Assembly (NCBI RefSeq): GCF_001999905.1
Contig: NZ_CP019640.1
Span: 1,778,001 to 1,842,000, forward strand
DNA from: Planococcus lenghuensis
Lineage (GTDB): Bacteria; Bacillota; Bacilli; Bacillales_A; Planococcaceae
Direction of reading: 5' to 3'
Length of the DNA stretch: 64,000 bases
Numbering within the stretch: the stretch's first letter is position 1; each line of letters begins with the position of its first letter. Below the pieces are notes generated by a model that saw nothing but the letters and a program-made list of their open reading frames with translations, made no database searches and was not told where the DNA came from. Below are positions 20,280 to 39,744 of the stretch, piece after piece. The position numbers and the translations under genes were made by a program.

Positions 20280-21065
20280 ATGGGAGAATTCCTCCACGAT
20301 TTAAGTCTGAAATGGTACTCCTTTTTGACGCAATTGGGCGTAAAGGTAGCTGAGCCGATTCTAGCTTTTACTGAACTGTGGAATATCCCAATTCTGACTG
20401 CACTGCTACTTGGACTGGCAGCTACAACGTCTCCTTGCCAAGTGACGACAAATGCCAGTGCACTGGCATTTGTCTCTCGGGATGCGACGAATAAACGAGA
20501 GACACTCGTTCAAACAGCGGCGTTCATTACGGGCAAAACCTTGATGTATACCTTAATAGGCGGGACGGCAATCTATTTAGGTGTGCAATTGACGACAGTG
20601 AATGGGAATACATCGTTCATTGTGCTAATCCGAAAAGCCATCGGACCGCTTATGGTTATTGCAGGTCTTTATTTTCTGGGAGTTGTCCGCTGGCGCCCGT
20701 CCTTTGGAGCAGAGTTGAGTGAACGTTTGAAAAGTAAAATTCCACAGGGCTCTCCGGTTGGTTCTTTCGGATTTGGCATAGCGTTTGCCCTGGCGTTTTG
20801 CCCAACACTGGTCTGGCTCTTTTTTGGTCTTCTCGTTCCACTTGGTATCCAGACAAGCGGTGGTGTCCTGCTCCCTGCCATTTTCGCACTCGGCACTACG
20901 ATTCCGTTGATTTTTTTCGTTCTGATTCTGGTCGATAGTTCAGAACTGATTAAACAGCGGTATTTCAAGAAAACCAAATCATTAAATAGATGGCTTACTA
21001 AATTAGCGGCTATCGTTTTCCTGTTAGCGGGCATTAATGATACCTTTACTTATTGGTTCATCTAA
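20280..21065 (+). CDS. CcdA/TauE-like membrane protein 1
   Basis: 261 residues with about six hydrophobic segments arranged as two repeats. One Cys lies early in ATTSPCQVTTNASALAF and a second in the equivalent position of the second half, ALAFCPTLVWLFFG. This paired Cys-Pro layout is that of DsbD-beta/CcdA transporters, which pass reducing power across the membrane, and it also resembles proteins annotated as sulfite exporter or UreH-like. Close position to copA-copZ and the shared promoter suggest extracytoplasmic thiol or copper work. It is paralogous to the frameshifted gene at 23596-24329. Confidence 0.75.
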   Translation: MGEFLHDLSLKWYSFLTQLGVKVAEPILAFTELWNIPILTALLLGLAATTSPCQVTTNASALAFVSRDATNKRETLVQTAAFITGKTLMYTLIGGTAIYLGVQLTTVNGNTSFIVLIRKAIGPLMVIAGLYFLGVVRWRPSFGAELSERLKSKIPQGSPVGSFGFGIAFALAFCPTLVWLFFGLLVPLGIQTSGGVLLPAIFALGTTIPLIFFVLILVDSSELIKQRYFKKTKSLNRWLTKLAAIVFLLAGINDTFTYWFI

Positions 21066-27785: not shown

Positions 27786-29687
27786 ATGAAGAAGTGGTTA
27801 TGGTTAGTAATGGCTATAATCAGCATGTATGTGCTGCTCCCTGCAATGGTCGGACTTGCTCATTCTGATTTGGTCAAAACCTATCCCATAGTGAACGAGG
27901 AACTGACGGGAAGCCCGGAAACATTAGAATTTTGGTTTCGGGATCCCGTCGTTGCCTACCCTGGATCCATTCGGTTAGTGAACAGCGAAGGTAAAATCAT
28001 TGATTTGAAAGACACAAAAACAGACCCAGAAAATAGGGGGCATGTGATAAGTGAAATTCCCAGTGAGTTGACACCCGGTGCCTATACCGCGACGGCAAAC
28101 GTAATAGCGCTAGATGGATTTGTTATCGAAGAAGTAATACAGTTCCGGGTTGTAGAAGCAGCTAGCCAGCCAACTGCCTCTGCAGAATCACAGGAAGTCA
28201 AACTGCTCCGCTATTCACCGGCAGATGGCGAGACTACAGAAGGTTCCCCCGGACAACTGGAATTCTGGTTTAATCAGCCGGTGACCCTGACGGCAGTCGG
28301 GGTATTCGGTCATCATCAAGAGGCGATTTCAACAGCTGAACCGGTGATCGATTCTGCAGACCCTAACCATATCACCGTGGAATTGACTGAAGAAGCACTG
28401 CCGGGCACATACCAAGTGACGTGGTATGCACGCCCGGCCAATCCGGAAGGTTTTGCACCTGAAACATTGGATGTTTTCTACTTTGCAGTGGACCATTTTA
28501 CTCCGATTGAAGAGGGCGGGAATACCACTGCCAAGAGTGAGGAGTGGTTTTCGAGTGCAGGTATCAGCCAAGGTGGTTATTGGCTGTGGTTTACAGGTCT
28601 TTCAGCGTTATTCGGATTCCTGTTTTTCAAATCATTCATTTTCCCGTCTTATACTTCAAGGCGGTGGCGGACTGTTTCAACCATTCTATTTGGATTAACA
28701 GCAGTTGGAATAAGTGCCGTGTTGCTAATACTTCATCAAGAGGTGGGGAGTTTACCCATCAGCCAGTTCATATCGTTGAAGTTTGTCTGGATTCCACTTT
28801 TACAGCTTGTACTTCTTCTGGCTGGTTTGTTATTTACTCGCGCAGGAACTGTGTTCGCGGGTGTTGCATTACTGCTGACGCCGTTGGTAACCGGGCATGC
28901 CGCTTACCCACAATACGGCGGCTACTGGTCTATTGCAGCCAGCAGCTTTCACTTACTGGCTGCTTCTGTTTGGATCGGTGGACTAATCGCGCTCATTACC
29001 GTTCCCCAAAAGAAAGAAGTAAAAGAACTGTTAGTTGAAACGCTGCCACGGTACTCTACATGGGCGCTGATCAGTTTAGGTGTGTTAGTTCTAACTGGTT
29101 TCTATATGACGATTGCCTATGTGCCCTCTTTTTCTGTGGAAAGTTTCCTGGAAAGCGAATGGGGAAAAGCGGTGACCATCAAAATGATATTTACTCTTCT
29201 TATTGCAGTCCTTGGTTTTTTTCAACGCAGGACAATTAAGCGATTGGTTATTCAATCGGTTAACGTCGTGGTAAGTCGTGCGAAAGCAGAAGTTGTGTAT
29301 GGTTTCGTTGTTCTACTCGCCGCTGGGTTACTGGTTGTCTCGACACCGAAAGCTGCTGAACAAGGAATTTATCCGACTGCCATGCAGCAACAGGGCTTAG
29401 ACATTGAATTGAATATTTCACCACTGGAGTTAGGGCTTAATGTGCTGACTGTTACGTTCAACGGACACAATGTAAAGGACGCAGAAGTAATAGTATCGAT
29501 GCCCCCGGATTACGAAGTCAGTTACAATGCCTTCCACACTGGAGAAAATGAATTCAAACTCACGGGAAATATTCTGCATGCCGCAGGCACAGTGGACTTG
29601 ACGGTCACAGCAACTATAGTGGACGGAGATGAAGTCACATTCCCCTTTCGTATCGTTGTACCTGGGAAAGTCAGGTATAATGAGTGA
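27786..29687 (+). CDS. CopC-CopC-CopD copper protein (YcnJ-like)
   Basis: 633 residues. Signal sequence, then two tandem CopC-type beta barrels: the first starts at the mature N-terminal His (AHSDLVKTYP, residues ~25-150) and the second around VKLLRYSPADGE (~155-260). About eight membrane helices of CopD type follow (GGYWLWFTGLSALFGF onward, with GHAAYPQYGGYWSIAASSFHLLAASVW split by conserved His). A C-terminal extracytoplasmic beta domain ends it (~500-633). CopC binds Cu(II) through the N-terminal His, and CopD is thought to import it. The doubled CopC is unusual. Last gene of the five-gene two-component operon. Confidence 0.9.
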   Translation: MKKWLWLVMAIISMYVLLPAMVGLAHSDLVKTYPIVNEELTGSPETLEFWFRDPVVAYPGSIRLVNSEGKIIDLKDTKTDPENRGHVISEIPSELTPGAYTATANVIALDGFVIEEVIQFRVVEAASQPTASAESQEVKLLRYSPADGETTEGSPGQLEFWFNQPVTLTAVGVFGHHQEAISTAEPVIDSADPNHITVELTEEALPGTYQVTWYARPANPEGFAPETLDVFYFAVDHFTPIEEGGNTTAKSEEWFSSAGISQGGYWLWFTGLSALFGFLFFKSFIFPSYTSRRWRTVSTILFGLTAVGISAVLLILHQEVGSLPISQFISLKFVWIPLLQLVLLLAGLLFTRAGTVFAGVALLLTPLVTGHAAYPQYGGYWSIAASSFHLLAASVWIGGLIALITVPQKKEVKELLVETLPRYSTWALISLGVLVLTGFYMTIAYVPSFSVESFLESEWGKAVTIKMIFTLLIAVLGFFQRRTIKRLVIQSVNVVVSRAKAEVVYGFVVLLAAGLLVVSTPKAAEQGIYPTAMQQQGLDIELNISPLELGLNVLTVTFNGHNVKDAEVIVSMPPDYEVSYNAFHTGENEFKLTGNILHAAGTVDLTVTATIVDGDEVTFPFRIVVPGKVRYNE

Positions 29688-29901: not shown

Positions 29902-30828
29902 ATGAAGACAATCCGTATCAATGCAGTTGGTTTCTTTTCGTTTCTGTTCCTTCTACAGCCGTTACAGGTATTTGCTCATGATCCGAATGCAAAAGCGGAT
30001 GGAGAAGGAACTTTATTTGAGCAGTATGCATGGTGGGAAGTATGGAACCCACTTCTGTTCATTGCTTTAGCGGTGATTTATATTTTTTATTTGCGCGTTA
30101 TGCGACGCATACCAAGTTTCTCAGAAAGTGGAATTCCCTTAAAGAAAAACGCCGCCTTTGCCGCCGGCTTGCTTGCTGTCTATGTAGCCCTAGCCGGACC
30201 AGTAGCGGTAATGTCCAATAACTCGGTGCTAAGTATACATATGTTCCAGCAATCGTTGATGTATGTTGTCATGCCGCCTCTTATTCTACTCGGTATGCCA
30301 ATCGAGTTTTATCGTTTTTTGAACGAGCAGGTCTTCAATATCCGTTTCCTCCGATTTTTACGATGGCCACTGTTGCATTTGTTTTTGTTCAATCTGCTTT
30401 GGTCGTTTTATCATATCCCGTTCATCTATGAATACATCCTAGAGCACGTTCTGCTGCTTGAAGTAGTGCATGTCGTTATTAATATATCGGCGTTCCTTAT
30501 GTGGATTCAGGTCCTTGCGCCAGATGGCCTGATCAACCGGATGTCATACGTCATGAAGATGGGGTACATGTTCGCGAATGGAATGCTAATTACGCCGGCT
30601 TGTGCATTGATTATTTTCTCTGATGTTGTGTTGTATTCATCTGTTCTAGAAGCGCCGGAATTGTTTTTTATAGCGACACCACTTGATGATCAACAACTCG
30701 GCGGGGTCATCATGAAAGTCGTTCAGGAGTTCGCCTATAGTATCGTGATCGGATCGATTTTTTACAAGTGGGTGAAAGCGGAAAAGGAACCAGAGACTCC
30801 TCTGAAGTCCTATCCGGCAGGCCAATAG
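29902..30828 (+). CDS. ctaG: CtaG-type cytochrome oxidase assembly factor
   Basis: 308 residues. A signal sequence is followed by an extracytoplasmic HDPNA segment and about seven membrane helices. The Caa3_CtaG signatures HMFQQSLMYVVMPPLILLGMP, FNLLWSFYHIPFIYEYIL and VVHVVINISAFLMW carry the conserved His residues expected to bind copper or haem. In bacilli CtaG is needed for caa3 oxidase assembly, with a copper delivery role proposed. No oxidase subunit is in the window. First gene of an operon with the redoxin and the RnfD-like gene. Confidence 0.88.
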   Translation: MKTIRINAVGFFSFLFLLQPLQVFAHDPNAKADGEGTLFEQYAWWEVWNPLLFIALAVIYIFYLRVMRRIPSFSESGIPLKKNAAFAAGLLAVYVALAGPVAVMSNNSVLSIHMFQQSLMYVVMPPLILLGMPIEFYRFLNEQVFNIRFLRFLRWPLLHLFLFNLLWSFYHIPFIYEYILEHVLLLEVVHVVINISAFLMWIQVLAPDGLINRMSYVMKMGYMFANGMLITPACALIIFSDVVLYSSVLEAPELFFIATPLDDQQLGGVIMKVVQEFAYSIVIGSIFYKWVKAEKEPETPLKSYPAGQ

Positions 30829-30868
30829 ATAACTCATCAAACAGAAAGCAGAGAAGGGAAACTATGCT

Positions 30869-31465
30869 ATGAATCAAAAGAAAAAGCAACAGCAAAATAA
30901 GACTTGGCTAATGGCTCTCTTTGTAACGGGGATTCTAATTCTGGCATTGACCGTACTGGTGTCCATTCAAAAAGAACAGACAGCAGCCAGTGGGACTGTA
31001 GGGGTAGATCCTGGAACAGCTGCTCCAGAATTTACGCTCGCTTCTACAGAAGGGGATATCTCCCTTTCAGACTATCGCGGAAAGAACGTCCTCTTGTACT
31101 TCTATGAAGGTAACGGCTGACAAGCCTGCCTTGATCAGCTGGTTCAGCTGAATGAAAAAGCAGATGAATATGCCAAAGAAAACACAGAAATTTTAGCAGT
31201 TACGACAGATCCGGTTTCTTTCAGCAAGCAGATCGGCGAGAAGCATGGAATCGTTGTTCCCATCCTTTACGACAAAAACCAACAAATCGGAAAACCCTAT
31301 GGAATAACAGACGTGCCAGGCGGCATGGACATGGGCCCAGTTGATACGCATTCTATCTTCCTGATTGATGCAGTTGGAACAGTTCGTTGGTTCGATATCT
31401 CTGAACGGGAAATGAATGTGCCGATCAAATCCATCGAAGAGGAGCTGCAGCAACTATGGCAGTAA
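30869..31465 (+). CDS. membrane-anchored redoxin with in-frame TGA at the CxxC position (candidate selenoprotein)
   Basis: 198 codons from ATG 30869 to TAA 31463-31465 with one internal TGA at 31118-31120. The N-terminus is basic with one membrane helix (WLMALFVTGILILALTVLV), then an AhpC/TSA-type thioredoxin fold: APEFTLASTEGDISLSDYRG, NVLLYFYEGNG, then TGA-QAC, ITDVPGGMDMGPVDTHSIFL. Relatives have Cys-x-x-Cys here, so TGA stands exactly for the first Cys (residue 84), giving U-Q-A-C with Cys87. The frame is open for 114 further codons, and the next gene starts inside its end by an ATG overlap, which argues against decay. A 7 bp hairpin with G-first loop begins 15 bases after the TGA. A nonsense mutation from TGC or TGT remains the alternative. 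Confidence 0.72.
31135..31151 (+). promoter_or_regulatory. candidate bacterial SECIS-like hairpin
   Basis: T-CAGCTG-GTT-CAGCTG-A forms a 7 bp stem with a GTT loop; the loop G is 22 bases after the TGA. Known bacterial SECIS loops lie roughly 16-37 bases downstream of the UGA and carry a G in the first two loop positions. CAGCTG is itself a palindrome, so chance cannot be excluded. Confidence 0.5.
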
Positions 31466-32250
31466 TACGTGATCCTCGCACGATGCAGATTATTCTGCTC
31501 AGTACGTATGCGGTTCTTGGCCTGTCCTTGCTGCAGTTTTCTGTAACCGTAGTCCAGATTGCGGTAACACTGGTGCTGTGTGTCGTACTTGAAATACTGT
31601 TTGTCTACGCAAAGCAGGGAAAGTTCATTTGGCCTGCGAGCGCATTGATTACGGGACTGGGCATCTCGCTTGCTCTTCGGGCGGAAGCACTCTTTCCGTT
31701 TATGGTTGCAGCTGTAGCAGCCATCGCATTAAAGCACTTGGTTCGCTACAAAGGGAAACATATTTTCAATCCATCCAATAGCGGAATCGTAGCTGTTGCC
31801 CTGCTGGTACCTATAGCAGCGACAGATCCTCTGCAATGGGGGAATTACTTGTGGGTTCTCGCCTTGATGTCTATCGGTGGCTTCTGGTTGGTTTACCGGG
31901 TGCATAAGCTACCGCTCGTCATCACATTCCTGGGAGCGTTTGTCGGTATCCACGCTCTCCGACTGTTCCTATGGCCGGAAATCTGGAACACCCATTTCAG
32001 CAGTTTCATGTGGGGCGGCTTATTCATCTTTACTTTTAACATGATCACCGATCCTGCCACTTCACCGAAGAGCATGAAAAGCCAAGTGGTGTTTGGAGCG
32101 CTCATTGCACTCCTCGCACAAGTACTGATTCACCTAAATGTCCACCATGCGGTGTTCATCAGTCTTGCTGTTGTCTGTGCAGGGTGGTTTCTTATGCGCT
32201 GGCTTAGTACTCAATTTCAACAAAATAAAAGTAGCAGTTTTGCCAAATGA
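31456..32250 (+). CDS. NqrB/RnfD-like membrane flavoprotein subunit
   Basis: 264 residues with about ten hydrophobic segments. GKFIWPASALITGLGISLAL and KHIFNPSNSGIVAVALL match the conserved blocks of the NQR2/RnfD family, and the FNMITDPATSPKS segment is the family's late loop, which often bears covalent flavin on Thr. The ATG overlaps the redoxin stop by 10 bases, showing tight coupling. No other Rnf/Nqr subunit and no ApbE flavin transferase are in the window, so it is a stand-alone copy. It may move electrons between a quinone or cytosolic donor and the exported redoxin; this is inferred. Confidence 0.82.
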   Translation: MAVIRDPRTMQIILLSTYAVLGLSLLQFSVTVVQIAVTLVLCVVLEILFVYAKQGKFIWPASALITGLGISLALRAEALFPFMVAAVAAIALKHLVRYKGKHIFNPSNSGIVAVALLVPIAATDPLQWGNYLWVLALMSIGGFWLVYRVHKLPLVITFLGAFVGIHALRLFLWPEIWNTHFSSFMWGGLFIFTFNMITDPATSPKSMKSQVVFGALIALLAQVLIHLNVHHAVFISLAVVCAGWFLMRWLSTQFQQNKSSSFAK

Positions 32251-32707: not shown

Positions 32708-33169
32708 ATGAAAACGAAAATGAAAATCATCCTTGCAGCTATTACGTTCCTTGCAGTCATCGGCGGCCTGATGTTGACCAGCATCGGTTCCACCGGAACT
32801 TTTTATCTGACTGTTGATGAATTGCTAGTGGATAAAGCAAAAGCGGCTGGGAAGCCTGTAAAAGTAAGTGGCAATATTGTTGGCGAGTCACTCAAGTGGG
32901 ATCCGGAACAGATTCTGCTTGAATTCGACTTGGAAGGCGAAAACGGAGAGCGGGTCACAGTCCTGTATGAGGGCGTCAAACCCGACACGATGAATGATGG
33001 CTGGGAAGCTATTGTGGAAGGGGAATTGCAGGAAGATGGCACTACCATCATCGCAACCGAGCTGCTTGTGAAATGTCCATCAAAGTATGAGGCGATGGAG
33101 GAAAATGGGGAGGTTCCACCTGAAGGACACGAGCCGACCACTGGGCAACCAGAAGGAGGGTATGAATGA
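32708..33169 (+). CDS. ccmE: cytochrome c maturation haem chaperone CcmE, CxxxY type
   Basis: 153 residues: one N-terminal membrane helix (IILAAITFLAVIGGLMLT), then the OB-fold haem chaperone with TFYLTVDELL, VKVSGNIV and TELLVKCPSKYE. The usual haem-binding His is replaced by Cys123 in a C-P-S-K-Y motif, the CxxxY variant known from archaea, Desulfovibrio and some Gram-positives. It receives haem from CcmC/D and passes it to CcmF/H on the outer face. First gene of the ccm operon; its stop overlaps ccmF. Confidence 0.93.
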   Translation: MKTKMKIILAAITFLAVIGGLMLTSIGSTGTFYLTVDELLVDKAKAAGKPVKVSGNIVGESLKWDPEQILLEFDLEGENGERVTVLYEGVKPDTMNDGWEAIVEGELQEDGTTIIATELLVKCPSKYEAMEENGEVPPEGHEPTTGQPEGGYE

Positions 33170-35157
33170 TGGGTGACATTGGACATTGGGCACTGATTTT
33201 CGCCATTATTGTCATTCCATATGCAATATTCGCGAACGTGGCAGCCGCAAAGACAGGAAGTCATAAGTGGTTTCGAAGTGCGAAATACGCTGCTGCTGTA
33301 CTGGCCGGATTGACAACACTTGCATCTGCGTCACTTGTTTACTTGTTGGTGACCAGTAATTTTGACTATCAATATGTCGCTCAGTATTCCAGTACTGATC
33401 TGCCAGTATTCTATAAAGTTTCCGCTTTCTGGGGCGGAAATGCCGGATCACTGTTACTGTGGCTTTGGATACTGAGCTTATACACAATGTTCGTTGCTTG
33501 GTCTACACACCGGGAAAGCCGGCTCTATCTGCCCTGGGTATCAGCCATTCTGTTGGTAATCAACCTGTTTTTCGCTTTTTTGCTCAATTCGATTGCACAA
33601 CCGTTCGCACTGAATCCGGAACAGGTGAGTGAAGGGAATGGCTTGAACTCCCTTCTGCAGAACCCGGGAATGGCTGTGCATCCGGTCACACTCTATTTAG
33701 GGTACATCGGATTCTCCGTACCCTTTGCATATGCGATGGCTGCATTGATCCTTAAAAAAGTGGATGCGACATGGCTGAAGATCACCCGGCGCTGGACATT
33801 GCTGTCCTGGCTCTTCCTTAGTATCGGCATCCTCTATGGCGCCCAGTGGGCGTATGTCGAACTTGGCTGGGGCGGTTATTGGGCATGGGATCCGGTCGAA
33901 AATGCTTCTTTCCTGCCTTGGCTGACAGCAACCGCCTTCCTTCATTCCATGATGGTGCAGGAAAAGAAAGGCATGCTGAAAAAATGGAATGTGTCTTTGG
34001 TGACCATTACGTTTCTGTTAACGCTTTTTGGGACATTCTTGACCCGGAGCGGGGTACTGTGGTCTGTCCATTCGTTTGCTAATGGACCAATCGGATCCTA
34101 TTTTCTCGGGTTTATCGGATTGATTCTTGTAGGAGCCCTCTATCTAATTATGACTCGGGCTTCTGTATTGAAGGCCGATGCTCCGTTTGAATCAGCTGTC
34201 TCAAAGGAAAGCAGTTTTTTGTTCAATAACTTATTGCTGGTGGGCGCTGCGTTCACTATTTTCTGGGGAACGATCTACCCGGTGATCTCAGAAACGGTCA
34301 CGGGCTCGAAAGTCATGGTAGGCGCCCCGTACTTTAACCGTGTTAATGTGCCAATTTTTCTTGCGATCGTCATCATGATGGGAATCGGACCAATTTTGGC
34401 TTGGAAGAAATCGAGCTTGAAATTAGTCCGTAAAAATCTGACACTTCCTGTGTTTGCCGCTTTGATTGTCGCACTTGCGCTATTTATTAGTGGAGTAAGA
34501 GGCTGGATGGCACTCTCGGCTTTTGCCAGCTCGGTCTTTGTCTTCGTCATTATCACAACGGAGTTTTTCCGGGCAGTAGAGGCACGGAAAAAAGTGACAG
34601 GGGAGAACGCGCTCCGCTCATTCTATATGTTGTTCGTCAAGAATCGCCAACGGTATGGGGGATACGTAGCCCATCTCGGTGTCATCCTGATTGTGATGGG
34701 CTTTACAGGAGCTGGCGCATTTTCAGTCGATACCCAGTACAACGTAACGGAAGGCGAAGTGGTCATGGTAGGAGATTATTCCCTCATGTACCGCGGTCTT
34801 GGTGAATACAGCACGGAAATGACCAATGTCATTTACGGGGAGTTTCTTGTCGAAGAGGATGGGGAATACCTCGGAGTCATCCGACCTGAAAAAGTTACTT
34901 ATTTGAACGGCAATCAGCCGACGACGGAAGTCTCTGTTGTTAGTTCCATTGAAGAAGATCTGTTTGTCATCTTGAACGGTTGGGTGCCGGACTCCGGAAA
35001 CAGTGTCATCCAAGTGAAGATTTTCCCACTGATCTCTGGCATCTGGTACGGAGGCTATGTATTGATACTCGGAACACTTATCTCGCTGTGGCCAGAGAAG
35101 AGACGGCCACGGAAAGCAACAATGAGTGTGAGAAGGGAGATGGTCTATGATGGATAG
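33166..35157 (+). CDS. ccmF: cytochrome c haem lyase subunit CcmF
   Basis: 663 residues with about 15 membrane helices. The WWD-type haem-handling motif WGGYWAWDPVENASFLPWL is intact, with flanking conserved His (FLHSMMVQ, VAHLGVI) and a large C-terminal extracytoplasmic loop (YNVTEGEVVMVGDYSLMYRG). With CcmH it joins haem to apocytochrome c. The start overlaps the ccmE stop by four bases and its end overlaps ccmH, so the three are coupled. Confidence 0.96.
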   Translation: MMGDIGHWALIFAIIVIPYAIFANVAAAKTGSHKWFRSAKYAAAVLAGLTTLASASLVYLLVTSNFDYQYVAQYSSTDLPVFYKVSAFWGGNAGSLLLWLWILSLYTMFVAWSTHRESRLYLPWVSAILLVINLFFAFLLNSIAQPFALNPEQVSEGNGLNSLLQNPGMAVHPVTLYLGYIGFSVPFAYAMAALILKKVDATWLKITRRWTLLSWLFLSIGILYGAQWAYVELGWGGYWAWDPVENASFLPWLTATAFLHSMMVQEKKGMLKKWNVSLVTITFLLTLFGTFLTRSGVLWSVHSFANGPIGSYFLGFIGLILVGALYLIMTRASVLKADAPFESAVSKESSFLFNNLLLVGAAFTIFWGTIYPVISETVTGSKVMVGAPYFNRVNVPIFLAIVIMMGIGPILAWKKSSLKLVRKNLTLPVFAALIVALALFISGVRGWMALSAFASSVFVFVIITTEFFRAVEARKKVTGENALRSFYMLFVKNRQRYGGYVAHLGVILIVMGFTGAGAFSVDTQYNVTEGEVVMVGDYSLMYRGLGEYSTEMTNVIYGEFLVEEDGEYLGVIRPEKVTYLNGNQPTTEVSVVSSIEEDLFVILNGWVPDSGNSVIQVKIFPLISGIWYGGYVLILGTLISLWPEKRRPRKATMSVRREMVYDG

Positions 35158-35641
35158 AATAACCGTCCTGTTGCTTGCATTCGTCATACTGTTGCTGCCA
35201 TTCAGTTTTCCTGATAGCACCTCAGCACAGGTAAATGTCGTTAGTCGAGCCGACATGCTGGAAGTGGCGCGCGAGATTCATCCACCAGGCTGTACTGATT
35301 CGATGACTGCCGATTATTGTACATTGTCAACTGCAACTGAAACCCGTGCAGAAATTTATGAGCTCTTGAAACAAGGAAATAGCAAGGATGAAGTCGTCAC
35401 GATTCTTGTGGATAAGTACGGAGAACGGATACTGGCTTCCCCGGTGAAAGAAGGATTTCATCTCGTGGCCGCTTGGATTCTGCCAATTGTTGGTATCACA
35501 GCAGGAATAACAGGGGTGTTCTTATTGCTGAAAACTTGGCTGCGAAGAAGAAACGGGATGAAAAATGCCCATACAGCTGAACCTGCCGTTTCAATGGAAG
35601 TGGAGAAACGAGTTCAGGCAGAATTACGAAATTGGCTTTAA
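35147..35641 (+). CDS. ccmH: CcmH-like protein with unusual Cys spacing
   Basis: 164 residues. A signal helix (LLLAFVILLLPFSF) is followed by a short three-helix domain and a membrane anchor (VAAWILPIVGITAGITGVFLLL), the CcmH/CycL layout, including the DEVVTILVDKYGERIL segment. The normal LRCxxC site is replaced by PPGCTDSMTADYC (Cys49 and Cys58), so the two Cys are eight residues apart. It probably still reduces apocytochrome for ligation, but the chemistry may differ. The family call rests on layout and context. Confidence 0.85.
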   Translation: MMDRITVLLLAFVILLLPFSFPDSTSAQVNVVSRADMLEVAREIHPPGCTDSMTADYCTLSTATETRAEIYELLKQGNSKDEVVTILVDKYGERILASPVKEGFHLVAAWILPIVGITAGITGVFLLLKTWLRRRNGMKNAHTAEPAVSMEVEKRVQAELRNWL

Positions 35642-35659
35642 GAAAGGCGGGAACGTGAA

Positions 35660-36019
35660 GTGGAAGCAATTTATGTATGGATCGCCGCTATCGGAGTAGG
35701 GAGTCTGCTGTTTATCCTATCCCCGCTTTTTTCAAAAAGCGGCCAGCAAGATATAGAAATCGAAACGAGTGACATCCTTCAAAAGAAGGAACAGGTGTTT
35801 TTGCAGTTGAAAGAGCTCGAGTTTGACTACCACATGGAGAAGATGTCCGATACGGACTACCGAAAAGCAAAAATCCAGCTGACAGTGGTGGCTGCCCAGT
35901 TTGTTGGACTGGAACAGGAAAACCAAAATACAGACAGTGTGGAACAAACAGTCGACCGGGAAATCGCCCAAGTACTTGACACTGTTCCTCCGGTGCAAAG
36001 GAGTGAAACAGGATCTTGA
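35660..36019 (+). CDS. CcmI-like small membrane protein
   Basis: 119 residues from GTG 35660. One N-terminal membrane helix (YVWIAAIGVGSLLFILSPLF), then a cytosolic helical hairpin QVFLQLKELEFDYHMEKMSDTDY, a pattern shared with CcmI and SHOCT-like proteins. It lies between ccmH and the next ccm-cluster gene and overlaps that gene by four bases. It probably aids the CcmF/H complex or apocytochrome handling; the exact role is inferred. Confidence 0.75.
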   Translation: MEAIYVWIAAIGVGSLLFILSPLFSKSGQQDIEIETSDILQKKEQVFLQLKELEFDYHMEKMSDTDYRKAKIQLTVVAAQFVGLEQENQNTDSVEQTVDREIAQVLDTVPPVQRSETGS

Positions 36020-36987
36020 ATAGTGGAATCAGTAAGATACTCGGTTTGATTGTGCTGATCACCACTTCATTTGTTCTCCATGCACATCCAACAGAGGCTG
36101 CAGTAACAGAACCTGTTCGCATTACAGAAGAAAATCTGATGGTGATCCCGCAGGACGCCAACACGCTGACCATCGTTCAAGTCATGACCATTGTGAATGA
36201 CGGCAAAGAAACTGTATCCCAACTGCCGGTTTATTTGCCGGATAATCATTCAGAACTCTCCCTTTTGGGCGACTTGAAAGCAGCTGAAGTAACGGAAACT
36301 GAAAGAGGTGTCATTATTGAAAGCGGACTTGCAGCCGAATCCGAGCGGCAGGTGATGCTATCCTATCAGATGCCGATGGAGGACTTGGCCGCTCAGTTTA
36401 CAATTGAACAAGCATTAATCACCGAAAATCTTCAAGTGATTATTCAGCCGGGTGTCTTGTCTTTTACGGCCAGTGATCTCATGACGCAGTCTGATTTATT
36501 CGAAATGAACGGGCAGGAGTACAGAAGGTTTACCCGACTGAATCTGCATCCGGGGGAGCCTTGGCGGTTATCATTTCAGCTGATAGCTGATCTTTCCGCT
36601 CCGGCAGGTGCTGGAGAAGGTACCAGCCCCTCAGAAGCGGTGAGTGCCGGTGAACAAAAAGTTACTTCAGATGGTTATCCGATCATTGGTCGGGCAGGAA
36701 TCGGATATGGAAAAGCTGCCATAACCATTCTCCTCATTATTACTGCCTTTTCTGCTGCACTAATTGGATTAAAACGGGACATGGCAAGCACTATCAGCAA
36801 AAAGAAATCGAAAAATACGCAGTGGCTGTTAGCGGAAAAAGAACAGTTGCTCTCGGAACTGTTTCAATTAGAGAAAGATTATCAGGGCAATCTGGTCGGC
36901 CGGCAAACGTATGATACGACGAAAGAGCAACTGCGGAACCGGTTGATTCAACTGACAACTGAATTTCAGAAACGGGCGGCTGGCTAA
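36016..36987 (+). CDS. exported beta-domain protein of the ccm operon
   Basis: 323 residues from a TTG coupled to the previous gene. A signal sequence ends near HAHPTEA. A ~190-residue beta-rich domain follows (NTLTIVQVMTIVNDGKETVS; VMLSYQMP), then a membrane helix (AAITILLIITAFSAALIG) and a C-terminal helical hairpin EQLLSELFQLEKDYQGNLVG much like the one in the preceding gene. No Cys or haem motif. Position inside the ccm operon suggests an apocytochrome-binding accessory (CcmI-type role), which is inference. Confidence 0.7.
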   Translation: MNSGISKILGLIVLITTSFVLHAHPTEAAVTEPVRITEENLMVIPQDANTLTIVQVMTIVNDGKETVSQLPVYLPDNHSELSLLGDLKAAEVTETERGVIIESGLAAESERQVMLSYQMPMEDLAAQFTIEQALITENLQVIIQPGVLSFTASDLMTQSDLFEMNGQEYRRFTRLNLHPGEPWRLSFQLIADLSAPAGAGEGTSPSEAVSAGEQKVTSDGYPIIGRAGIGYGKAAITILLIITAFSAALIGLKRDMASTISKKKSKNTQWLLAEKEQLLSELFQLEKDYQGNLVGRQTYDTTKEQLRNRLIQLTTEFQKRAAG

Positions 36988-37676
36988 TGGAATTGAAAGA
37001 CGTCCATGTCCTGCTGAATGACCAGCCCGTTCTGCGTTCCATCAACTTCTCATGGGCTAAGGGTAAGTGCATCGCCATCATTGGAGCCAATGGAGCCGGG
37101 AAGACGACGCTTCTTAAAGTAATAAGCCAGCTCATTAAGCCGGCTTCGGGGGAAATCCAGATAGCCGGACTTAACGAGAAGGAATGGAAACGGCGGCTCG
37201 GACTCGTATTTCCCGCTTCGTTCCTATACGAAGATTTGACCGCCTTGGAAAACTTGGTCTTTTATCAAAAACTATATGGCCAAAAGAATGAAGGGCCTCT
37301 TCTGGGCTTGTTAGAAGAAGTGAATTTACTGCCAGTTAAAGATGAACCGGTCCATACTTTTTCAAAAGGGATGAAACAGCGGCTGTCCATTGCCCGGGCG
37401 CTTGTCCATGGACCGGATTACTTGATATTGGATGAACCGTTCGATGGATTGGATTTGCAATCCAAAAAAACGCTTGAATATCTTCTGGAAAAACGGCGGA
37501 ACCATGGGGTCGGTTATCTGCTCGTCAGTCATGATGTCCGCCATGCATTTGAGCTGTGCGAGAAAGCTGTGCTTCTGAACAGCGGTCGAATTGTTCATGA
37601 AGCGCCGTGTACAAGTGAAGGGTATATCGATTTAATGGCGCGGTACAGCTTTCTGTTGAATGGGGAATCTGCATGA
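36987..37676 (+). CDS. ccmA: haem exporter ATPase CcmA
   Basis: 229 residues. ABC motifs are complete: Walker A GANGAGKTT, signature FSKGMKQRLSIARAL, Walker B YLILDEPFDGLD and the switch His in LLVSHDV. It powers the CcmAB complex that releases holo-CcmE from CcmCD. Starts on the stop of the upstream gene and overlaps ccmB by four bases. Confidence 0.93.
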   Translation: MELKDVHVLLNDQPVLRSINFSWAKGKCIAIIGANGAGKTTLLKVISQLIKPASGEIQIAGLNEKEWKRRLGLVFPASFLYEDLTALENLVFYQKLYGQKNEGPLLGLLEEVNLLPVKDEPVHTFSKGMKQRLSIARALVHGPDYLILDEPFDGLDLQSKKTLEYLLEKRRNHGVGYLLVSHDVRHAFELCEKAVLLNSGRIVHEAPCTSEGYIDLMARYSFLLNGESA

Positions 37677-38350
37677 AGTTCCTCAGTGATGCATTCCTGA
37701 TATTCCAGCGGGACATGCGGATAGAATTTCGGCGCAAATCTCTTCTCTTATCTATGGTCATCTTCGCCATCCTATTCAATGTGGTACTGCAAATTGCTTT
37801 CAATGCCAATACCGAAGCGATGGAACTGGTGGCACCCGGAATCTTATGGCTGCCGATCCTGCTGGCCGCCATGCTGGGGTTTTCCAAATATGGAATCCAT
37901 GAAAAGGAGAACGGGACGGATATAGGGCTGCTTGCATCCCCTGTTGACCGCGGATCGCTTTTTCTTGGAAAACTTGCCGGGAATCTCTTGCTCGTGACCC
38001 TTGTTACTGCAGTTTCTGTCCCTTCATTCTTTTTGTTTTTGAAACAACCTTATCCGGAATCACTGGGCTTGTTGGTGGTCACGGTTCTGCTTGGCAGTTG
38101 GGGATTCACAGCGGTTGGCGTTTTTTTGTCTGTCTTGGCTCAAGCAAGCCGGATTTCCGATTTGCTTCTGCCCATTATGATTTTCCCGCTCACTGTCCCT
38201 CTTCTGCTTTCTGTCATCCAGCTGACAGGACCGGCCCTTTACCCGGTGACAGAGCAGGGAATCGGTCTCTGGCTGCTGATGCTGGTCGGATATAATATTC
38301 TCTTTACCGTCATTCCGCTGCTATTATTCGATTTATTACTGGAGGTGTGA
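37673..38350 (+). CDS. ccmB: haem exporter permease CcmB
   Basis: 225 residues with six hydrophobic segments. The N-terminal FQRDMRIEFRRKSLLLSMVIFA and the ENGTDIGLLASPVDRGSLFLGKL loop match CcmB. It is the membrane half of the CcmAB ATPase. The start overlaps the ccmA stop (ATGA), and ccmC follows after one base. Confidence 0.92.
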   Translation: MKFLSDAFLIFQRDMRIEFRRKSLLLSMVIFAILFNVVLQIAFNANTEAMELVAPGILWLPILLAAMLGFSKYGIHEKENGTDIGLLASPVDRGSLFLGKLAGNLLLVTLVTAVSVPSFFLFLKQPYPESLGLLVVTVLLGSWGFTAVGVFLSVLAQASRISDLLLPIMIFPLTVPLLLSVIQLTGPALYPVTEQGIGLWLLMLVGYNILFTVIPLLLFDLLLEV

Positions 38351-38351
38351 A

Positions 38352-39044
38352 ATGAGTAAGTTCATGAAATTTCTGCATGTTATCAAACTGCCAGTCGCAT
38401 TGCTTGCAACGGCAGCACTCCTGATTCAGTTCTATCTTTCGTTCTTCTACGCACCGACCGAAAGGTTCATGGGCCATATTCAACGGATCATGTATTTTCA
38501 CGTGCCAAGTGCCTTTGTGGCGTTTGCCGCTTTCTTTCTTGTATTCATCGGCGGGGTGCTATATCTGTACACGAAAAATAAAAAATGGGATTACCTTGCT
38601 GTGTCGGCAGCTGAAATCGGCGTCATCTTTACGACCATCGTACTCATCACCGGATCCTTATGGGCACGGCCTGTCTGGAATGCCTGGTGGGTGTGGGAAG
38701 ACCCGCGACTCGTCACATCGCTCATCCTTTGGTTCATCTATATCGCCTATCTGCTAATCCGGGCATCCGTCAAAGGAGACGAACGGATTCGGCGGTTCGC
38801 CGCGATTTTCGGCATCATCGGCTTTTTGGATGTCCCGCTCGTCTATTTCTCGGTGAAATGGTGGCGGACCATTCATCCGAAAGTGATCGATGAACAGGGC
38901 GTCCACATGCCGGCTGAAATGGCGCAGACCTTGTTCTACAGTATATTCGCTTTTCAGCTTTTCTTTGTGGCGCTGCTGATCTACCGCTTCTTGCTTGAAG
39001 TGCAGAAAAATCGTGTCCGGGAACTGAAAGCCGGACAGTACTGA
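38352..39044 (+). CDS. ccmC: haem-handling protein CcmC
   Basis: 230 residues with six membrane helices. The Trp-rich haem motif WNAWWVWEDPRLVTSLILW and the conserved His residues in YFHVPSAFVAF and RTIHPKVI are present. It loads haem onto CcmE together with CcmD. The layout and length match CcmC rather than the related CcsA. Confidence 0.95.
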   Translation: MSKFMKFLHVIKLPVALLATAALLIQFYLSFFYAPTERFMGHIQRIMYFHVPSAFVAFAAFFLVFIGGVLYLYTKNKKWDYLAVSAAEIGVIFTTIVLITGSLWARPVWNAWWVWEDPRLVTSLILWFIYIAYLLIRASVKGDERIRRFAAIFGIIGFLDVPLVYFSVKWWRTIHPKVIDEQGVHMPAEMAQTLFYSIFAFQLFFVALLIYRFLLEVQKNRVRELKAGQY

Positions 39045-39060
39045 GAAAAGGAGAATAGAG

Positions 39061-39186
39061 ATGACTTTTTTAATAACCGGTTTAATTGTGATGTGGCTGA
39101 TCATTCTCCTCTATATCGCCCAAATGACCAAAGAACAGCGCAAGGTCAATAAGCAGTTAGCGAACATCCAAAAACACAGCGACTGA
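39061..39186 (+). CDS. ccmD: CcmD-type small membrane protein
   Basis: 41 residues, ATG at 39061 preceded by AAAAGGAGAATAGAG. One membrane helix (LITGLIVMWLIILLYIAQ) is followed by a charged tail KEQRKVNKQL. Size, topology and position directly after ccmC fit CcmD, which anchors CcmC to CcmE. Sequence conservation in CcmD is low, so the call is mainly positional. Confidence 0.8.
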   Translation: MTFLITGLIVMWLIILLYIAQMTKEQRKVNKQLANIQKHSD

Positions 39187-39225
39187 ATGGAACAGGCAGG
39201 AGCCTGAAAGGAGGTCAGCAACGCT

Positions 39226-39744
39226 ATGAAGAAATTATTGCGAATTTTTCTCCTGCTCGTAATCGCCGGCGGCTTTTTCTATATGGCCGTCAGCTCTGCC
39301 GAGAACTCAACCGCTGCAGTGGCGGGAGACCCGGCACCGGATTTCACATTGGAAGACATGGACGGGAACATGGTGAGCCTCTCCGATTATAAAGGCCAAT
39401 TCGTCGTTCTGAACTTTTTCGCCTCTTGGTGCCCACCTTGCCGGGAAGAAGCACCTGAACTGCAGAAATTCGAAGAGCAGTACGGAGATCAAGTAAAACT
39501 CCTCATCCTGGACCGGGCGGAACCGAAGATTAAGGTACAGGAATTTATCGACGAGTTCAATTCCACGTCGACATACTTGTTGGATTACAATGATTCGATG
39601 GCAAAACCGTATGGCGTCATCGGCCAGCCGGAGACGTTTTTTATTGACGAAGAAGGAATCATCCGGCTAAAGCACTCCGGGCCGATGACAACTGAATTCA
39701 TGGTGGAAACTGTCAATCAATTCATTGACACGCCACTAAAATAG
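39226..39744 (+). CDS. resA: thiol-disulfide oxidoreductase CcmG/ResA
   Basis: 172 residues: N-terminal membrane anchor (IFLLLVIAGGFFYMAV), then a TlpA-like thioredoxin fold with the active pair SWCPPC (Cys69, Cys72) and the cis-Pro segment GVIGQPETFFIDEEG. It reduces the CXXCH cysteines of apocytochromes, or CcmH, on the outer face, receiving electrons from CcdA. GGAGGTCAGC precedes the ATG. Both ResA and CcmG are proper names; context favours CcmG. Confidence 0.92.
   Translation: MKKLLRIFLLLVIAGGFFYMAVSSAENSTAAVAGDPAPDFTLEDMDGNMVSLSDYKGQFVVLNFFASWCPPCREEAPELQKFEEQYGDQVKLLILDRAEPKIKVQEFIDEFNSTSTYLLDYNDSMAKPYGVIGQPETFFIDEEGIIRLKHSGPMTTEFMVETVNQFIDTPLK

Follow-up and report, generated by a model that had tools for sequence, protein, structure and literature searches.

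A UxxC redoxin of Planococcus lenghuensis, probably membrane anchored, with an in-frame TGA that very likely encodes selenocysteine

Introduction

The closest described counterparts of the gene analyzed here are two selenoprotein families listed in Table 1 of PMC13188914. One is a "Prx-like thiol:disulfide oxidoreductase" (PF00578; UxxC/UxxU; representative WP_010940744.1), and the other is a "Redoxin family protein" (PF08534; UxxC; HEU0032618.1). A Prx-like UxxC family is also described in PMC1088965, and the selenoprotein count given for Firmicutes/Bacillales in PMC1794560 is three. Our literature searches found nothing on selenocysteine (Sec) in Planococcaceae and nothing on selenocysteine together with selB in Bacillaceae, while the titles returned for selenocysteine and Sporosarcina dealt with other subjects. 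The redoxin gene considered here lies in a 64,000-nucleotide stretch (the window) of the P. lenghuensis genome (4.15 Mb, 4 contigs), where a first-pass annotation made from the sequence had proposed that an in-frame TGA encodes Sec.

Redoxin gene and its in-frame TGA

The gene occupies positions 30869 to 31465 on the forward strand and reads as 198 residues, with a single internal TGA at codon 84 (31118 to 31120) and a terminal TAA stop. Residues 48 to 174 match the Pfam AhpC-TSA domain (E = 6.1e-26), and the match spans the TGA; the protein scored 91.2 bits against PF00578 (cut-off, 26) and 69 bits against PF08534 (gathering score, 26.6). Both the frame and the domain match agree with the first-pass description of one in-frame TGA in an otherwise intact 198-codon redoxin. 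The 114 codons reported to remain open 3′ of the TGA were borne out (chance by base composition alone, ~0.0013), as was an overlap with the following gene, for which the next open reading frame begins at 31456. Residues 13 to 33 form a hydrophobic stretch, as judged by eye, ahead of the AhpC/TSA domain. This stretch suggests an N-terminal membrane anchor, and the protein is probably membrane anchored.

Read as Sec, the UGA places U84 in the motif EGNG-U-QAC, with Cys87 (TGC, 31127 to 31129, forward strand) as the second residue of UxxC. The closest relative that we found, WP_098797083.1 from Metabacillus sp. B2-18 plasmid pB218 (50% identity), has Cys at this site (EGNNCQAC), in line with the earlier claim that the TGA stands where relatives have the first Cys of CxxC. 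Identity to this homologue is about equal on the two sides of the TGA (38/80 before and 57/112 after).

Thirteen NCBIfam models were listed for the redoxin, and it scored below the cut-off of every one. Scores of 51.4 bits against the PrxU model NF040737 (cut-off, 270) and 63.7 bits against the ResA model NF002854 (cut-off, 170) place the protein outside both families as those models define them. Because no listed model reaches its cut-off, the gene is at risk in standard annotation, which could truncate it at the TGA or label it a pseudogene.

Hairpin downstream of the TGA

A 7-bp stem with a G-first loop had been noted from the 15th base after the TGA, and we recovered it as a candidate bacterial SECIS hairpin at 31135 to 31151 on the forward strand (stem, 31135 to 31141 with 31145 to 31151; loop GUU, 31142 to 31144), with a spacing of 21 nt and a folding energy of −8.3 kcal/mol. 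The bSECIS model in PMC13188914 specifies an upper stem of 4 to 16 bp, a loop of 3 to 9 nt with a G at loop position 1 or 2, an MFE of ≤ −7.5, and a spacing of 16 to 37 nt, and the window hairpin lies within every constraint printed there. The two strands of the window contain 2,574 TGA triplets, of which 3, counting the redoxin TGA, show the same exact geometry with a G at loop position 1 or 2, and 39 (again counting this one) are followed by a bSECIS-like 7-bp stem at ≤ −7.5 kcal/mol. A 7-bp stem also arises in 8% of synonymous recodings of the protein. The hairpin of a single sequence is therefore only moderately unusual, and so the weight is carried by conservation in other genomes. An Rfam scan of positions 30800 to 31500 returned no SECIS family, with matches only far below gathering scores.

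Conservation was consistent across all 18 TGA-bearing redoxins examined. With the TGA numbered as positions 0 to 2, each has a stem at 17 to 23 and 27 to 33 and a 3-base loop at 24 to 26 with G in the first two positions; all seven pairs form in 16 of them, and six of seven form in the other 2. The hairpin was not formed in any of the 16 Cys homologues examined (1 to 5 of 7 pairs). In an alignment of 16 distinct rows, 98.2% of cells were paired, and sliding the partners by 1 to 3 columns lowered pairing to ≤54%. Double-sided changes occurred at 3 of the 7 stem pairs versus a shuffled mean of 0.7, with 2 of 500 shuffles as high, although the TGA rows in this test are related to one another and the shuffle figures are not probabilities. 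Two of these double changes come from the window sequence, in which the basal pair is U-A in place of G-C and the pair beside the loop is G-C in place of C-G. The earlier suggestion to ask whether homologues keep the hairpin thus has a positive answer, as its position is retained with compensatory changes in distantly related TGA-bearing redoxins.

Selenocysteine machinery and other TGA-containing genes

A search for the sel genes had been proposed as a check on the Sec reading, and selA (556 bits; cut-off, 268), selB (383 bits; cut-off, 242), selD (427 bits; cut-off, 125), and tRNA-Sec (63.1 bits; gathering score, 47) were all present above curated cut-offs in the genome. ARAGORN also calls the tRNA-Sec, with anticodon TCA. 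These four genes are grouped within ~7 kb.

In three further genes of the genome, a redox site is occupied by an in-frame TGA, and inspection by eye shows a stem after each one, closed by a 3-base loop with G in the first two positions. One is selD itself, with the TGA near its N terminus (SSKGG-U-GCK; L009:11678-12736, + strand). A ResA-like gene beside selA (WASW-U-RC; L009:5376-6161, − strand; contig C1 near 2005307) has a hairpin with 7/7 pairs at an offset identical to that of the window redoxin gene. The best NCBIfam match of its product was NF041054 (117 bits; cut-off, 300), and it is a probable second selenoprotein. The other gene, on a separate contig, encodes a PrxU-like peroxiredoxin (FTPG-U; L024:1426-1935, − strand; contig C2 near 82733) that scores under every NCBIfam cut-off listed. 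Its TGA is followed by a GGA-loop hairpin with a bulged U in the stem, and it is a probable third selenoprotein.

Homologues and distribution

The Metabacillus locus on pB218 shares the gene order of the window, with the redoxin followed by an RnfD-like gene, but differs in having Cys for Sec and in its unformed hairpin (4/7 pairs; fold energy, 0). Redoxins with a TGA in the same column were recovered from Chloroflexota metagenome-assembled genomes (MAGs) CF_106 and CF_121 (L060, L061, and L062; 31 to 35% identity). Their hairpins have the same offset as that of the window but a different sequence, and no RnfD-like gene was matched in the surrounding DNA examined. selB was found in both MAGs (351 to 352 bits).

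A wider alignment search of Chloroflexota gave matches in 91 of 400 genomes at E ≤ 1e-20. We read 30 listed loci (L153 to L182), of which L153 and L154 duplicate L060 and L061, leaving 28 distinct loci. Among these listed matches, 14 carry TGA at the site, 11 carry Cys, and 3 carry Thr or Ser. Whether homologues have varied stops or decay at this site had been raised as a check, and neither TAA nor TAG was seen at the aligned site in the 28 distinct loci. Overall, at least 17 further redoxin loci, all in Chloroflexota, share the TGA position of the window gene. A second Chloroflexota group of UxxC redoxins (FYRAFW-U-xxC; L163, L165, L167, L168, L169, L171, L174, L175, L177, L180, and L182) was also observed, with the same hairpin offset. 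selB was above the cut-off in 13 of the 14 TGA-bearing Chloroflexota genomes, the remaining one (G665) having no match, and in 9 of the 11 genomes with Cys versions, several of them by partial matches. Since the cut-off is also passed where the redoxin has Cys, we dropped selB as a discriminator between Sec and Cys within Chloroflexota.

Closer to P. lenghuensis, searches returned only the window's own gene, both among 261 genomes of its order (E ≤ 1e-25; no other member of the subfamily) and among 398 genomes of its class (E ≤ 1e-20). Relaxing the family-level search to E ≤ 1e-15 gave matches in 27 of 200 genomes, the window's own gene among them. All 26 others lack an internal TGA (a TAA is present in one), and where aligned, they are of the PrxQ or ResA type. 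An alignment search of viral contigs and a search of genome contigs with P0001 alone gave nothing useful.

A tree of 30 rows places the window gene with the Metabacillus Cys gene (support, 94/81), and this pair lies next to a Chloroflexota group of six Sec rows and one Cys row (94/71), both supports falling under the starred level of the tool. The tree omits L165, L168, L169, and L175 (TGA rows similar to others), the duplicates L153 and L154, and the Thr/Ser rows L164, L170, and L178. At least three changes between Sec and Cys are needed on it. Horizontal acquisition of the redoxin gene would likely account for the lack of any other member in the order- and class-level genomes despite selB being above the cut-off in 27 of the 261 genomes of the order (3 of 19 genera).

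Genomic neighborhood and proposed function

The redoxin gene is flanked on its upstream side by CopCD, CtaG, and F510_1955-type genes, including forward-strand genes for a protein with CopC and CopD domains (27786 to 29687) and for a CtaG-like caa3 oxidase assembly factor (29902 to 30828). The gene overlapping its end (31456 to 32250, forward strand) encodes the RnfD/NQR2-like membrane protein found in the same order on Metabacillus pB218. On the other side lie forward-strand genes for CcmE, CcmF, CcmH, an ABC ATPase, CcmB, a CcmC-like protein, and a CxxC redoxin (39226 to 39744). This region, from 32708 to 39744, resembles a System I cytochrome c maturation cluster. DsbD/CcdA-type membrane proteins are encoded in the window at 20280, 23596, and 41488.

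An RnfD-like neighbor was matched in only 1 of the 15 homologue loci tested (L059), which indicates that the RnfD-like protein is not a general partner. On five Actinomycetota plasmids, the Cys homologue directly follows ccdA, and the next gene is of the glutaredoxin or thioredoxin type in three of them, annotated with a GST N-terminal domain in one, and hypothetical in one. By eye, the redoxin at L061 is followed first by a glutaredoxin-like and then by a CcdA-like gene, but in Pfam the former scored 21.7 bits (cut-off, 26) and the latter had no match, and adjacency to ccdA is therefore claimed only for the annotated Actinomycetota plasmids.

Judging by these neighbors, the protein may reduce thiols outside the cytoplasm, in the setting of cytochrome c and copper maturation genes. 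As established for Sec decoding in bacteria, SelB carrying Sec-tRNA-Sec would bind the hairpin and insert Sec at UGA 84. Given the fold, the anchor, and the neighbors, the protein may act outside the membrane as a thiol-disulfide reductase in which Sec84 is the nucleophile and Cys87 resolves the selenenylsulfide, with electrons coming from a CcdA/DsbD-type or RnfD-like membrane partner. Its substrates would most likely be cysteines of the cytochrome c or copper-site proteins served by the flanking maturation genes. We give this proposed role roughly an even chance of being correct.

Alternative explanations

The in-frame TGA, the Sec machinery, the TGA in Chloroflexota homologues, and the conserved, SECIS-fitting hairpin together indicate that the TGA almost certainly encodes selenocysteine and that the gene specifies a thioredoxin-fold selenoprotein with a U-x-x-C active site. 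The first-pass annotation had named two outcomes that would speak against Sec, a genome lacking the sel genes and homologous strains with varied stops and decay after the TGA; neither turned up in this genome or in the distant Chloroflexota relatives read here, and its reading is supported. It is very improbable that the gene is instead a pseudogene, in which a TGC- or TGT-to-TGA mutation leaves only a dead 83-residue N-terminal piece. The TGA is one base away from Cys codons, and the closest homologue found has Cys, with no other close copy in the 261 order-level and 398 class-level genomes. However, 17 other redoxins, all from Chloroflexota, retain both the TGA and the hairpin offset, there is no decay downstream of the TGA, and the genome encodes the full Sec machinery along with three further Sec-type genes. 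Bacteria do show read-through of UGA, and a near-cognate tRNA could decode the codon, inserting Trp for instance, or the codon could serve as a regulated truncation point without Sec. Alignment of the site with a redox-motif Cys, a hairpin kept only with the TGA codon among the homologues examined, and a dedicated tRNA-Sec in the genome make this scarcely credible.

The activity of the selenoprotein is a separate question. AhpC/TSA is its best curated domain, and its top PDB profile matches are peroxiredoxins, as might be expected if it were mainly a peroxidase rather than a thiol-disulfide reductase. We consider a mainly peroxidatic role unlikely, though quite conceivable, since the aligned counterpart of U84 in a ResA/CcmG-like redoxin of the window is the first Cys of CxxC, while PrxQ-type relatives have Thr in line with U84 and their Cys in line with Cys87, and since Cys homologues adjoin ccdA. 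The alignment of U84, together with the ccdA, Ccm, and copper context, favors a thiol-disulfide reductase over a peroxidase.

Comparison with known systems

With this gene, a lineage in which Sec decoding is partial (selB in 27 of 261 genomes) gains a UxxC selenoprotein that is probably exported. The window gene and the Cys version found in the same arrangement in Metabacillus also provide a clean pair for asking what keeps Sec at a redox site outside the cytoplasm. As a tentative synthesis that is less likely than not, these redoxins may form a distinct, unnamed subfamily of anchored UxxC proteins (EGxxUxAC) that has spread between phyla partly on mobile DNA. Sec would then drive extracytoplasmic thiol reduction for the maturation of cytochrome c and copper enzymes, the SECIS offset would be fixed by an overlapping QLVxL motif, and the window/Metabacillus pair would represent a Sec/Cys exchange inside one operon type.

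PrxU (NF040737) has the AhpC/TSA fold and Sec in common with the window redoxin but differs in its TxxU motif (Table 1 of PMC13188914) from the UxxC found here. The Prx-like oxidoreductase selenoprotein WP_010940744.1 shares an AhpC/TSA domain and UxxC, and the redoxin family selenoprotein HEU0032618.1 shares PF08534 and UxxC, both likenesses being drawn from the domain and motif listed in that table. Of these two classes, the HEU0032618.1 group may belong to the same subfamily as the window gene. The P. lenghuensis redoxin thus joins the already known UxxC Prx-like and redoxin selenoproteins, as a new example of a principle that is not itself new.
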